A stretch of DNA of 37,666 nt. Source: a virus. The notes beneath the pieces are model-generated. The model was given only the letters and a program-made list of their open reading frames with translations. It ran no database searches and was not told where the DNA came from. The first letter of the stretch is position 1. Every line of letters starts with the position of its first letter. The position numbers and the translations under genes were made by a program. This document shows positions 25,731 through 37,666 of this stretch, piece after piece. The stretch covers positions 1 to 37,666 of the IMG/VR virus record IMGVR_UViG_3300027335_000007, one strand, 5' to 3'.

Positions 25731-26000
25731 TTAAAGTGTTTCTCTGATCTTGAGTATTTGGTTTAATGACAGTGGATTTGTCATGCTGTTTAACTCTAGA
25801 TCAAATCTTACTTTTTTTGACTGCCATTCAATAATGGTAAATTGAATTTTTTCTTTTTGCACATACTCAAAGGTATATTGCTTACCATTTGTTTCAACAG
25901 TATTCCAAAAAAGATTTTCTTTAGACTTTAATCTGTGCAATGGGAAAACACCTAATACAGTACAGATCTTTTCATTTACTCTAAAAATATGTTCGTTCAT
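25731..26000 (-). CDS. Unrecognised 89-residue protein
   Basis: AAAGG lies 8 bases before the ATG at 26000. Predominantly beta-like sequence with alternating hydrophobic and charged residues (KQYTFEYVQKEKIQFTIIEW) and a short helix at the end (LSLNQILKIRETL). The gene runs in the same direction as the 186-residue gene 64 bases further on. A possible hairpin (26003-26010 with 26048-26055, one G-U pair) touches its ribosome site. No function can be proposed. Confidence 0.55.
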   Translation of the reverse strand: MNEHIFRVNEKICTVLGVFPLHRLKSKENLFWNTVETNGKQYTFEYVQKEKIQFTIIEWQSKKVRFDLELNSMTNPLSLNQILKIRETL

Positions 26001-26128
26001 GTCTTTTACCTTTCTTAACGACCATTCATATATATGTAAACACTTAAGATAAAAGTTTATTGCAACCTCGACTAATTTTTATTTTATATATCCGTCTTTT
26101 TATATACATCTTAAAAAACAGGTAAAAA

Positions 26129-27808
26129 ATGACTAAGTATAGACAAGCTGAATATGAAAATTGGGATGATTATAATTTTGTTTTAAAAAGAATACAAAAT
26201 GGTAATGGTAGCGAAATTGCTAAAGCAAGCAGGGATTTAAAATCCAATCCTACATTGAGAGAAATTGCTATTGAGAATGGTGCTTTAATATCAGATACTT
26301 ATATGCCTACTAGTAGATACATAAGAATTTCTGATCCAAATCTTGCTATTAAAGGTTTGAAAAATGGTGGCAGTGATCAACTTGGATATTTAGATAGTAG
26401 TCTTACTAATAATAAAGAAGTAGTTTTAGTAGCAGTAAAATTAGATCCAAATAATCTTATGTTTGCAAGTGATGAACTTAAAGATGACTATGATGTTGTT
26501 AGCCTTGCTGTTAAGATAGATGCTAACACTATTCAATTTGCTAGTGATCGTTTAAAAAATGATCTCACTATCGGAAACTACATCCTTGAAAAAAATCCAC
26601 AAGTATTCGTTTCATTAATGAATGACTTAAAGACAAATATTGATTTTGCCATTCAAAGACTTTCACAAAACCTACAAGACCTTAGATTTTTCCCAAACCT
26701 AGTAAATCACATTCAAGTTCAGAAACTTCTTAAAAATAAAAAACTAATTTTGCAATCTGCTGGCATCACACCTGATGCCAAATCAGTTTATCATATTTTC
26801 AATATGGTAAATGAAAATCATTTATCTTTCCTTGATCACATAGCAAATGATTTAAAAAACGATGAAAGTTTTATGCTTAAACTTTTAGAAGTAACACCAA
26901 AAGCATATACCATCCTTCCTGATTCTTTAAAAAATGATCCTGTGTTTATAAATAAAGCAATGGATGTGTCTTTGATTGACACCTATTTGAACTTTGATGA
27001 AGATAAAAAGAAAGAACTTGCAGGAAAAATAACAACTTTAAGTTTGAGTACTGCACCTGCTTTAGATTTTATATTCTATGGTAGAATTACAACACCGGGT
27101 CTTATCCTTTTTAAAAAACATTTGAACTTCACAATTAAAACCATCAAAGGTTCGCCTTTAAAGAACTTCAAAAAAGTCTTTTCAGCAGGTAAAGTTATAG
27201 TTGGTCAAAAAATAGACCTTCTAGCATCTAATATTTTACCATCTGAAATTGCTAGTGAATTACAAACATTTAAAGGTATACTTGCTGGCTTTTTTGATCC
27301 ACGATTTGTAAATAATGTTTACATCATCTTAAATGGTGAAACATATAAAAAATCCGATGCCATTAATCTTATTCATGAACTTGCACATAAATTTCAATAT
27401 CACCATATAAAGAATGGTATGGAAAACAAAAGACTTAAAGATTTATTTGACCTAGCTAAAAATCCAATTGGTGATGAATATTGCGAACTGCCACAAATAG
27501 GTGATCCTTTATCTAATCTTAGAGATCCTAAACTTTGGGGCATTAATAATAGATTAGCTAATTCCGAATATTATTTAAAGAAGATTGACCAATGGAACTA
27601 TATCTATGAAAATGAACAAAAAAAACAAAAAATCTTACCTAGATCTGAAATCAGAATACTTAGCAGATGTCCATCTCAATATTCTAAAATGGCTCACTAT
27701 GAATGGTTTGCTGAAATGGCTACTCTTGCTACTTTAAACCTTGCCAAGACTTCTGAAAAATTGATTGTTGAAGAATTTATTAAAATTGTTAATGAAGAAT
27801 CTATTTAA
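26129..27808 (+). CDS. Array zincin-like metallopeptidase with DUF4116-like repeats, member I
   Basis: Largest member, 559 residues, AGG 6 bases before the ATG. Repeats of the DUF4116 kind run over about 70-290: LTNNKEVVLVAVKLDPNNLM (92-111) with FASDELKDDYDVV, then IQFASDRLKNDL and LKNDESFMLKLLEVTPKAYT (242-261). Core motifs are IKGSPLKNF (339-347), HELAH (416-420), IGDPLSNLRD (457-466; the usual EDWW is altered to DPKLW), CPSQYSK (514-520) and EWFAE (525-529), with Trp replacing the first Phe. It is set apart from H by two minus-strand genes. Its stop shares TTAA with the stop of the next minus-strand gene. Confidence 0.72.
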   Translation: MTKYRQAEYENWDDYNFVLKRIQNGNGSEIAKASRDLKSNPTLREIAIENGALISDTYMPTSRYIRISDPNLAIKGLKNGGSDQLGYLDSSLTNNKEVVLVAVKLDPNNLMFASDELKDDYDVVSLAVKIDANTIQFASDRLKNDLTIGNYILEKNPQVFVSLMNDLKTNIDFAIQRLSQNLQDLRFFPNLVNHIQVQKLLKNKKLILQSAGITPDAKSVYHIFNMVNENHLSFLDHIANDLKNDESFMLKLLEVTPKAYTILPDSLKNDPVFINKAMDVSLIDTYLNFDEDKKKELAGKITTLSLSTAPALDFIFYGRITTPGLILFKKHLNFTIKTIKGSPLKNFKKVFSAGKVIVGQKIDLLASNILPSEIASELQTFKGILAGFFDPRFVNNVYIILNGETYKKSDAINLIHELAHKFQYHHIKNGMENKRLKDLFDLAKNPIGDEYCELPQIGDPLSNLRDPKLWGINNRLANSEYYLKKIDQWNYIYENEQKKQKILPRSEIRILSRCPSQYSKMAHYEWFAEMATLATLNLAKTSEKLIVEEFIKIVNEESI

Positions 27809-32975: not shown

Positions 32976-33113
32976 TTTCATATACTCCTGTTGCTATCTA
33001 TCATTATGTTCTTTATTTAATACTTATTAAATTTTTATCTGAACTTGCAATAAATCTCAATCCTAAGTGTTTATGTATATATCAACTAACCAATCTCGAA
33101 AGGATTGTGATTT

Positions 33114-33647
33114 ATGTACGGAACACTTTCTATTCCTACTTTTGAAAACTTTCTCAATGCAACTCAAAACACTTTTACCAAGTGGTCTGAAAATACCATT
33201 GCAGTGAATGTAAAGAACACCACCTGTGCAATGATCTTTAAATTTGAAAATGGTAATCTTAAATCTACAGGTTTATGGTCTTATCAATCTAAAAAGTTTC
33301 TTTCTACTTTCGATGAAGATAAGAAACTTGCACAAGATCCTACTCTTTCTCTTATGGAAAAAGTTCTTAATGCAATGTCTTTTTGGATTGATAAAGCACA
33401 AGTAGAAAAAAAACCTGAAAGAAAACCATTTAAGAAATTTGAAAAAAAACCTTTAAGTGATGATCAAATTTCTTTCTTTCAAAAAGTTCAAAGTTTATCC
33501 AAAGCAAGTGAAATTGCGAATGATGAATTTACTTTAAAGTTCTCTCAATCCATTATTGACTTGATCAATAAATATGGCAGTAATGCAAAAATCTCTGAAA
33601 AACAAATTCAAATCTCTTTGACCAAATTCAAAAAATATGGAATCTAA
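33114..33647 (+). CDS. 177-residue protein with a small C-terminal domain shared with member B
   Basis: AAAGGA about 10 bases before the ATG. Residues 1-100 are of mixed strand and helix (NTIAVNVKNTTCAMIFKFEN). A Lys/Pro linker (EKKPERKPFKKFEKKP, about 103-118) leads to a helical end, EFTLKFSQSIIDLINKYGSN then AKISEKQIQISLTKFKKYGI. That end resembles the last 40 residues of the metallopeptidase at 16193 (EW-x-x-KF ... P-KQLLWIEKTLQKYSI). Function unknown; the shared end may be a docking module. First gene of a three-gene plus-strand operon. Confidence 0.6.
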   Translation: MYGTLSIPTFENFLNATQNTFTKWSENTIAVNVKNTTCAMIFKFENGNLKSTGLWSYQSKKFLSTFDEDKKLAQDPTLSLMEKVLNAMSFWIDKAQVEKKPERKPFKKFEKKPLSDDQISFFQKVQSLSKASEIANDEFTLKFSQSIIDLINKYGSNAKISEKQIQISLTKFKKYGI

Positions 33648-33873: not shown

Positions 33874-34071
33874 ATGCAAGATCAAATTACTCAAAATCTT
33901 TATACTTGTCTTGACCTGTTTGAACAGGATGTAAAACAAAAAATCCAAACTGTTCTTTCTACCAATGACTTAACACCTGCACAAGTAAACGAACTAAATT
34001 CTAAAGTGCATACATTCCTAAAACAAAATCTTTCCAATATGGAAGAGGACATCCTAAATCTTTTCAAGTAA
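33874..34071 (+). CDS. Unrecognised 65-residue helical protein
   Basis: The ATG follows the upstream TAA directly, so it is translated by reinitiation. The protein is entirely helical with a single Pro-containing turn (LFEQDVKQKIQTVLSTNDLT, then PAQVNELNSKVHTFLKQNL). It may form a coiled coil or a small helical bundle. It ends with an 18-base tail-to-tail overlap with the deaminase gene. Confidence 0.55.
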   Translation: MQDQITQNLYTCLDLFEQDVKQKIQTVLSTNDLTPAQVNELNSKVHTFLKQNLSNMEEDILNLFK

Positions 34072-34509
34072 AATCATATTGTCTTTTAAATATATTAAAC
34101 CTTGATTATGCACACCACCAAAATCCATTGGACAATATACTTTCTTTATTCCAGCATGATGAATTGCTTTTGCACACATTAAACACGGATCACAATTTAC
34201 TATTAAGATTTTTCCCTGTGTAGATTGACCAATCCTACTTGCATTTAAAATTGCATTTAATTCTGCATGATGACAGCCAACATCATTTTGTGTACCACTT
34301 GATACTTTATTTAAATCTCTTAAACAAATAGAACCACCACATAAATCACCTGTTGAGCAACCTCGTGGATTACCATTATATCCATCTGCAATAATGCTAT
34401 TAGTAGTATCATCTAAAATCATTGCAGATACTTTCCTGCGAATACAAGAACTTGCTTCAGCCAATAAATTACATTGTGCAATTCTGATTTCTAATAAATG
34501 TTTTTTCAT
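34054..34509 (-). CDS. dCMP deaminase-like protein
   Basis: 151 residues. HAE at 81-83 provides the zinc-binding His and catalytic Glu, and DPCLMC (107-112) provides the two zinc-binding Cys. NGNPRG at 45-50 and the extra cysteines C51, C57, C62 match phage and bacterial deoxycytidylate deaminases. The enzyme turns dCMP into dUMP, feeding dTMP synthesis for phage DNA replication. Length is normal for the family. No thymidylate synthase or other nucleotide gene is in the window. A cytidine-type deaminase of different substrate cannot be excluded. The AAGGA site is 6 bases from the ATG and lies in a hairpin loop. Confidence 0.87.
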   Translation of the reverse strand: MKKHLLEIRIAQCNLLAEASSCIRRKVSAMILDDTTNSIIADGYNGNPRGCSTGDLCGGSICLRDLNKVSSGTQNDVGCHHAELNAILNASRIGQSTQGKILIVNCDPCLMCAKAIHHAGIKKVYCPMDFGGVHNQGLIYLKDNMILLEKI

Positions 34510-36089: not shown

Positions 36090-36160
36090 ATACACTTTCC
36101 TTATGTATTGACGAATATATAAATATACTTATATGTTTTTTTCAAAGAAAAAACAAGTAT

Positions 36161-36505
36161 TTATCGTATAGATATTACACGATTACTTAAATATTCATCT
36201 TCTACCTGTGCAATAAAATATCCTAGTTCACTTAATGTAAACAAGTTCTTTTCTTTACAGGTATCACTACCTACTTTTACCTTTACTCGCATACCTATTT
36301 CTAGTTCACCTTGATCTTCAAAGGAACACCAACTCACATCTAGTGTGACCATATAACAAACAGCATTTTTCTTAAATGCTTTGCCTATTGGTGAATAAAA
36401 GACTTCACCTCTATACATAGGTCTTTTGTTATATTCGTTTTCCCAATTTCCCTGCACCTTAAAACCATTTTCTTTTAAATAGTTTTTTACTTCCGTCACT
36501 TTCAT
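36161..36505 (-). CDS. Unrecognised 114-residue protein
   Basis: I chose the ATG at 36505 because AAAGGA lies 6 bases before it; the frame stays open to 36574 but nothing supports that start. The N-terminal helix (VTEVKNYLKENGFKVQGNWE) is followed by beta-like segments (AVCYMVTLDVSWCSF; ELEIGMRVKVKVGSD). No family recognised. It is the rightmost credible protein gene in the window. Confidence 0.55.
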   Translation of the reverse strand: MKVTEVKNYLKENGFKVQGNWENEYNKRPMYRGEVFYSPIGKAFKKNAVCYMVTLDVSWCSFEDQGELEIGMRVKVKVGSDTCKEKNLFTLSELGYFIAQVEDEYLSNRVISIR

Positions 36506-36796
36506 AAGAATCCTTTCAAAAAGACAATAAAATCCCTTTAAAGATTTTACAACCTTTATTTTAATTATTCTCATGTTTTTACTTTAAACACCAGCTTAAA
36601 GACAATAAAATCTCTTTTAAGAATTTCCCAACTCTTAATTAAGGTGTCTTTATATGTTTATGTTAGTTTCTGATCCTATATTTACCTTGCACGAAAAGAT
36701 ACCATCAACAAGCATTACTTTCCACAGTTGCAGACCAAGTAAACTCTATTCTCTCTTTCAACACTACACGATATGGAAATTAAGACATTACCATTG

Positions 36797-37098
36797 CCTT
36801 TAAACAGAGGATCTTATTACCCTTTTAAAGGTCTTTTGTTTCCCCATTGTCCGAAGACGAGGAAACCATCTCTTTTGCATCGTTTCAGATGCGAACACAC
36901 ACTAAAACCTCTAAAGATTTTACTTATACTAGATGTATAAATAGAATATATAGATGTATTATATGTATTGGAAGAGATGTTGGAAGCAATAGGAAACACC
37001 TTAATGGATCTTACCGTCCTAACCCCATGCTCTATATTATTTCAAAGGTAAGCACGGATGGTGTCCTGACATCTATCTAAGTATCATTTTCACTTCCA
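36797..37098 (+). ncRNA. Candidate large structured non-coding RNA (core helices)
   Basis: Four successive structures are visible. (1) CCTTTAAA 36797-36804 with TTTAAAGG 36824-36831. (2) GTTTCC 36838-36843 with GGAAAC 36861-36866, enclosing GTC-CGAA-GAC 36849-36858. (3) TTTGCATC 36874-36881 with GATGCGAA 36888-36895. (4) A long nested arm: TGGAAG 36969-36974 with CTTCCA 37093-37098, AGATGT 36975-36980 with ACATCT 37069-37074, AGGAaaCACC 36991-37000 with GGTGTCCT 37060-37067, and CTTACC 37010-37015 with GGTAAG 37047-37052. Helix 3 needs a U-G pair possible only on the plus strand. The true ends are unknown and may reach past 37227. Long phage RNAs such as GOLLD and ROOL are the obvious known comparison; I cannot claim membership. 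Confidence 0.45.
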
Positions 37099-37553
37099 CC
37101 TAAAAAGGATGAAAAAAAGCTACTTTTGAAGTCTTAAACTATGCCTTACAGAATCACTTTAAAAATAAAGTAATCATAACCTAGCACGAGAATAAAGTAA
37201 AGTTCCTAGATACCTGCGATATCTAAAGGTTTTCCCTTATAAGTATTCTTTCTAATCTTAAGCTACCTTTACACCTAAGACTTTATTTACTTGATCGTAA
37301 CCAAGCAGAACCTTATCTACAATTAAACCTGTTTTCAGATTTAAAAGCCTTTACCTTATGGATTACTCTTATATTTAAATCTTTCCCTTTTAGCAAATCT
37401 TTTTTTATCTTTTTTTTATCATTCAAAAAAGCCCTTTAAATTTGCTCTTTTCCTTTAAGGTATATGTTCATATAGGAATGACCTTTAAAATCGTCTATAA
37501 AGCATATTAGATAGGTTTTAGAACATATAGGATTTATTTGCTAGATCGTTTAC

Positions 37554-37634
37554 TTATCCTGCATATAAAAGATAATGGTTTAAAGATTAAAGCAATAAGA
37601 CCTTTCTTATCCAGCTATAAAAGTTTATGGTTTA
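37554..37634 (+). repeat. Imperfect direct repeats at the right edge
   Basis: Two copies of a 28-29 base unit, TTATCC-(TGCA/AGC)-TATAAAAG-xx-ATGGTTTA, lie at 37554-37582 and 37607-37634. The word GTTTACTTATCCT also occurs twice (37548-37560, 37630-37642). A third, weaker unit starts at about 37636 and runs off the window. Iterons, repeated RNA elements or degenerate gene leaders are possible. Confidence 0.55.
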
Positions 37635-37666
37635 CTTATCCTTATATGTTGATAAATCTTATTCTC

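Follow-up and report, generated by a model that had tools for sequence, protein, structure and literature searches.

We found that a block of approximately 660 nt at positions 36668-37328 (minus strand) of the window, by which we mean the whole 37,666-nt stretch of viral DNA analyzed here, is predicted to encode a large structured RNA, and covariation between two phages supports this prediction. The features found in the block are those of a large structured phage noncoding RNA, namely conserved structure, compensatory changes, a noncoding nature, and a location in a phage genome. The explanation that we favor, and regard as probable, is that the block specifies a large ornate noncoding RNA of a new family, transcribed leftward out of a control region that also serves a clamp-loader operon and acting in trans through its fold.

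The window, a viral contig of 37.7 kb, encodes both a portal protein and the large subunit of terminase. Relatives of these two proteins sit on contigs as long as 376 kb, indicating that the window came from a jumbo-phage genome, of which it is a fragment. Among 22 related records, one (G002) contained the homologous region, at 82% identity. This record is 316,221 bp long, and a 20-nt overlap of its ends suggests that the contig is probably circular. The closest kin of the window, G001 and G003, are fragmentary records that seemingly stop short of the RNA locus.

In the alignment of the window with G002, the block was 89.9% identical, with 65 substitutions and indels of 1, 1, 1, 1, 1, 2, and 4 nt. 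Identity was 66% in the left spacer and 58% in the region to the right, and the next two genes (80% and 83%) were also less conserved than the RNA block. The ends of the block (5' near 37328 and 3' near 36668) were set by this conservation, and those of the transcript are guesses. The preliminary description had assigned the RNA to 36506-37227; the conserved element shares most of that span but starts further from the gene on the left and continues for about 100 nt more on the right. Short open reading frames in the block differed in start and frame between the two phages, and together with the frame-shifting indels this ruled out a conserved protein.

The folding energy of a single sequence is little proof by itself, and a homologue was sought for this reason. 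The gene-free stretch did fold better than expected by chance, as had been proposed, with z scores of -4.1 on the minus strand and -2.0 on the plus strand for 36508-37227, and of -3.1 and -2.2, respectively, for 36668-37328. The RNAalifold consensus of the window and G002 on the minus strand comprised 185 pairs, including 13 two-sided compensatory pairs and eight one-sided changes tolerated as G-U, with no pair broken, and its energy had a z of -7.7 relative to shuffled columns. The plus-strand consensus lay 4.8 SD below column shuffles, with nine compensatory changes and one one-sided change. As both sequences contribute to a consensus fold, an independent test was added in which the structure was folded from one sequence only and pairs with a probability >0.5 were used. 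G002 compensated nine pairs of the window-only minus fold against 0.8 expected (none of 5000 randomisations reached nine) and broke 11 against 20.9 under the null, whereas two pairs of the window-only plus fold were compensated (P = 0.11). When G002 alone was folded, ten pairs were compensated on the minus strand and nine on the plus strand. The clearest case was the hairpin at 36797-36831, where CCTTTAAA/TTTAAAGG is replaced by CCTATGAT/ATCATAGG. These counts derive from two members, between which many helices, including large ones, are invariant. The preliminary description had made its claim of a large structured RNA depend on compensatory changes among homologues, and the 13 such pairs found against G002 leave that claim standing.

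Watson-Crick compensation looks alike on either strand, and G-U changes are strand-specific. The eight one-sided changes keep pairing only if the block is read as the minus strand, compared with one such change for the plus fold, and the G-U content of the fold (58 cells versus 21) also favored the minus strand. Two G-U pairs of the closing helix turn into A-C mismatches when read as the plus strand, and the invariant loop, GUC-UUCG-GAC at 36849-36858, is a cUUCGg tetraloop on the minus strand only. Based on the one-sided changes, the closing-helix G-U pairs, and this loop, the plus strand, on which the RNA had originally been placed, was rejected, and the RNA was assigned to the minus strand (leftward). 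The genes to the left of the RNA point the same way, and the delta' gene of the clamp loader runs divergently. The same evidence bears on whether the block is a structured DNA element, such as a packaging or partition site, and not an RNA. Compensatory changes fit DNA hairpins as well as RNA ones; however, the strand bias of the tolerated changes and the G-U content fit RNA, and the cUUCGg loop is typical of RNA, so that we consider a DNA element extremely unlikely.

The predicted minus-strand fold is shut by a long-range helix of 12 bp, the longest of the structure, in which GATCAAGTAAAT (37285-37296) pairs with GTTTACTTGGTC (36733-36744) in the consensus; both strands are invariant, and the helix lies partly beyond the span first proposed. 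Proceeding from the 5' end, it is followed by a 10-bp hairpin at 37254-37282 (one compensatory and one G-U-tolerant change), a 4-bp hairpin at 37226-37238 (one compensatory change), a 7-bp hairpin at 37207-37225 (TAGATAT/GTATCTA with a U-G pair), and a bulged 8-bp hairpin at 37152-37175 (one compensatory and two G-U-tolerant changes). A long arm at 37068-37145 carries three compensatory changes at its tip, and a second long arm at 36991-37067, formed by AGGACACC/GGTGTTTCCT and a 9-bp hairpin at 37024-37058, is mostly invariant. The nested arm described earlier at 36969-37098 survived in part. Its inner helix (36991-37000 with 37060-37067) was kept but is invariant, whereas the outer TGGAAG/CTTCCA helix loses one of its six pairs in G002, and the 3' side of that helix competes with a pairing of 37116-37120 with 37092-37096 that shows two compensatory changes.

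An invariant, interrupted 16-bp helix (36961-36977 with 36752-36769) closes the inner domain at 36752-36977. Within this region are a 53-nt element with a 9-bp hairpin at 36920-36972, a 6-bp hairpin at 36905-36920 (one compensatory change), an invariant 5-bp hairpin at 36877-36892 (GCATC-TGAAAC-GATGC), an 11-bp hairpin at 36838-36866 that bears the invariant cUUCGg loop (one compensatory change), the 12-bp hairpin at 36797-36831 (four compensatory changes and one G-U-tolerant change), and a bulged 7-bp hairpin at 36773-36794 (one compensatory and one G-U-tolerant change). The three hairpins at 36797-36895, where hairpins had been suggested previously, were upheld, two of them with compensatory changes in G002. 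A hairpin of 4+7+5 bp is predicted at the 3' end (36688-36732).

The RNA was compared with known families. When 36100-37666 was searched by cmscan with all 4227 Rfam models under permissive filters at E ≤ 10, unrelated weak matches only were obtained; the GOLLD, ROOL, and OLE models did not match the RNA region at this cutoff, and no Rfam family reached the gathering threshold anywhere in the window. ARAGORN and Rfam gave no match to a tRNA, tmRNA, RNase P RNA, intron, or riboswitch, and ARAGORN found no tRNA in the window; G002 carries one tRNA-Met, located about 85 kb from the RNA. The ROOL model was also negative on 14 relatives including G002, in a comparison whose control set likewise lacked any ROOL. 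These results support an RNA family absent from Rfam 15, in agreement with the new class suggested at the outset, and do not support the identity with GOLLD or ROOL that had been offered beside it.

To our knowledge, very few large ornate RNAs are known, and their functions are mostly obscure. GOLLD expression rises during lysis, and GOLLD has a conserved 3' region. GOLLD and ROOL form RNA-only cages, that of ROOL being a homo-oligomeric nanocage. The window RNA resembles ROOL (RF03087) in being ornate, phage- or prophage-encoded, about 0.57-0.66 kb long, and independent of a protein gene, but no match to ROOL in sequence or structure was obtained, the Rfam ROOL model and the defining ROOL fold were not found, and there is no tRNA island. 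It is like GOLLD in being a large ornate phage RNA and differs in its length of about 660 nt and in having no match to the GOLLD model. OLE is likewise highly structured, at about 600 nt; however, the window RNA does not match the OLE model and is borne by a jumbo phage. GOLLD, ROOL, and OLE form homo-oligomers, GOLLD and ROOL often lie near phage tRNA islands, and GOLLD members often exceed 800 nt (PMC12286853). OLE occurs in extremophilic and anaerobic Bacillota (PMC12054373), and the lncRNAs of phage K (PMC9241854) served as further comparison literature. A GOLLD, ROOL, OLE, or HEARO RNA, an intron, or a ribozyme that has diverged beyond the reach of the models would agree with the size, the ornateness, and the phage setting; given the Rfam and ROOL results and the lack of a tRNA island, we judge this highly unlikely.

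Further members of the family were sought. Five exact patterns from conserved blocks were run against 2.9 million viral contigs, and G002 was the only true relative. Pattern matches in L058, L059, L061, and L191 were dismissed as chance or protein-coding, as were seven 18-mers in species genomes, all due to chance. BLAST against phages and plasmids returned no homologue of the RNA, and covariance models R1 and R2, built from the block, detected G002 only among 35 related records; two-sequence models and pattern prefilters reach near relatives only. The family is likely rare. A defence-associated RNA was also rejected, as PADLOC on ten proteins (those of the eight window genes that run up to the RNA, and delta' and delta of G002) gave a deaminase domain only. 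Apart from a dCMP deaminase, the genes neighboring the RNA had no Pfam match. A dCMP/cytidine deaminase-like protein is encoded at 34054-34509 (minus strand), as part of the cluster of genes that lies downstream of the RNA.

The next gene downstream (36161-36505, minus strand, start near 36505) encodes a 114-aa protein that is 76% identical in G002, where the arrangement is the same. The protein had no Pfam or PHROG match, and its gene was found in no relative besides G002. Between the RNA and this gene lie two tandem AT-rich hairpin repeats (36520-36642, minus strand), which occur as a degenerate pair in G002 and are possible terminators or processing sites. No GC-rich terminator was found, and no sigma-70 promoter was recognizable above chance. 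The gene is on the same strand and starts about 160 nt past the block, a position kept in G002, as would be expected if the block were a very large regulatory 5' UTR of this gene. However, the block far exceeds known riboswitch and attenuator leaders in size, the spacer to the gene is poorly conserved (66%), and its two AT-rich hairpins resemble ends and not a switch. Moreover, the gene was seen in no further relative, whereas the place of the RNA is kept by another kind of structured RNA in sister phages (see below). We therefore consider a cis-acting leader improbable. The large size of the RNA, its conservation in excess of what a leader would require, and the poorly conserved spacer with AT-rich hairpins favor a separate, trans-acting RNA.

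In G002, the RNA is flanked by leftward genes on one side and by an AT-rich stretch on the other, beyond which clamp-loader delta', clamp-loader delta, and ribonucleotide reductase are encoded, in this order, on the opposite strand. Positions 37465-37489 of the window (minus strand), upstream of the RNA, hold a 25-nt element whose sole other copy was at G002:889-913 (plus strand), just upstream of the delta gene, with no copy expected by chance. It is possibly a promoter or leader element, and its presence upstream of both RNA and delta hints at common control with replication genes. The G002 region adjoining the RNA has about 19% GC and bears repeats. The 53-nt element of the RNA occurs three times in G002, all in this part of the genome; the two extra copies are in the AT-rich stretch beside the RNA, 132 nt apart, and belong to an 86-nt repeat (L056:2990-3222). 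Short interspersed AATAAATCTTATCTTC-type repeats were also observed next to the RNA in G002 (L056:2728-2893) and are possible iterons or promoters.

These surroundings raise the question of whether the locus is an origin and the RNA an origin transcript, an R-loop primer, or a replication regulator. The GC-skew sign of G002 flips at the RNA, with the detrended cumulative minimum at 315 kb, the AT-rich region is repeat-bearing, the adjoining genes specify the two clamp-loader subunits and ribonucleotide reductase, and the triplicated 53-nt element, confined to this region, could pair with one strand there. On the other hand, the corresponding slot of G004 is not at a skew extreme (its minimum is at 114 kb), gene orientation flips at the slot and is sufficient alone to yield skew, and an origin has no need of 660 nt of compensated RNA structure. 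A replication-linked role of this kind is accordingly given a small chance.

Because the RNA of G002 sits beside clamp-loader genes, the slot upstream of delta' was examined in relatives. All nine lower-GC relatives examined had an ORF-free gap there, of 480-1015 nt, and that of G004 was the largest in its genome. No such gap was present in the high-GC distant relatives G010, G011, G014, G017, G018, G019, and G022, or in the 485-kb phage LR745208.1. In L145, whose delta' is closest to that of G002, the slot holds protein genes instead. Eight distinct sister jumbo phage sequences carried a structured RNA in the slot, termed class B, in the same direction as the window RNA. Its conserved core of about 240 nt (minus strand) is at L148:3171-3410, L157:3183-3422, L159:3177-3407, L161:3171-3413, L162:3170-3412, L165:3171-3410, L152:3046-3274, and L153:3033-3212, with nhmmer E values of 4e-27 to 5e-65 among the eight sequences. 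Covariation was observed at 29 of 58 pairs, and the minus strand was favored by G-U cells (67 versus 36) and energy (-35 versus -28). Class B matched no Rfam family and nothing in sequenced phages.

The two RNAs are alike in slot, direction, covarying structure, and the lack of an Rfam match, but the conserved core of class B is shorter and no similarity between them was detectable. Models tried both ways revealed no likeness in sequence or structure, and the class B model R3, with filters off, gave nothing above noise in the RNA block of the window or of G002. One slot thus contains two RNAs without detectable relation, which have either diverged beyond detection or filled the slot on two occasions. 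The slot gaps of G021, L151, L156, and L160 lacked class B. Among gaps with neither class A nor class B (L147:2930-3437, L151:2716-3500, L156:2941-3500, and L160:1494-1889), that of L147 gave a plus-strand fold stronger than those of shuffled sequences (z -3.3) and the other three did not.

That an unrelated structured RNA is kept in the slot of sister phages argues for a role of an RNA made there. It is possible, and we propose it tentatively, that in this jumbo-phage clade one slot, facing away from the clamp-loader genes, is set aside for a large structured RNA and that lineages fill it with unrelated RNAs. If so, the RNAs would share one conserved task connected with the replication of the genome or with the timing of replication, and the RNA itself would be replaceable or evolving past recognition. 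With another, unrelated family at that site beside replication genes, the new family offers a comparative handle that the known ornate RNAs lack, namely a fixed genomic context that points to the timing and the partners of the RNA.

Under the explanation that we favor, a new family of trans-acting RNA, the RNA would be transcribed leftward, as a separate transcript, from the control region common to the divergent clamp-loader operon and would fold into a multi-arm structure shut by long-range helices. Judging from its size and structure, it would most likely function in trans through its fold while the phage infects its host, serving as a scaffold or binding platform, and by analogy with GOLLD and ROOL it may possibly self-assemble.

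Two further observations were made elsewhere in the window. The sequence at 26129-27808 (plus strand) is predicted to encode a phage protein that contains three DUF4116 repeats (E 1e-24). The intergenic regions 25731-26129 and 32981-33114, both divergent, had in common a motif recognized by eye, TTGCAATAAA...TAAGTGTTTA(C/T)(A/G)TATATA, which is a candidate phage promoter.
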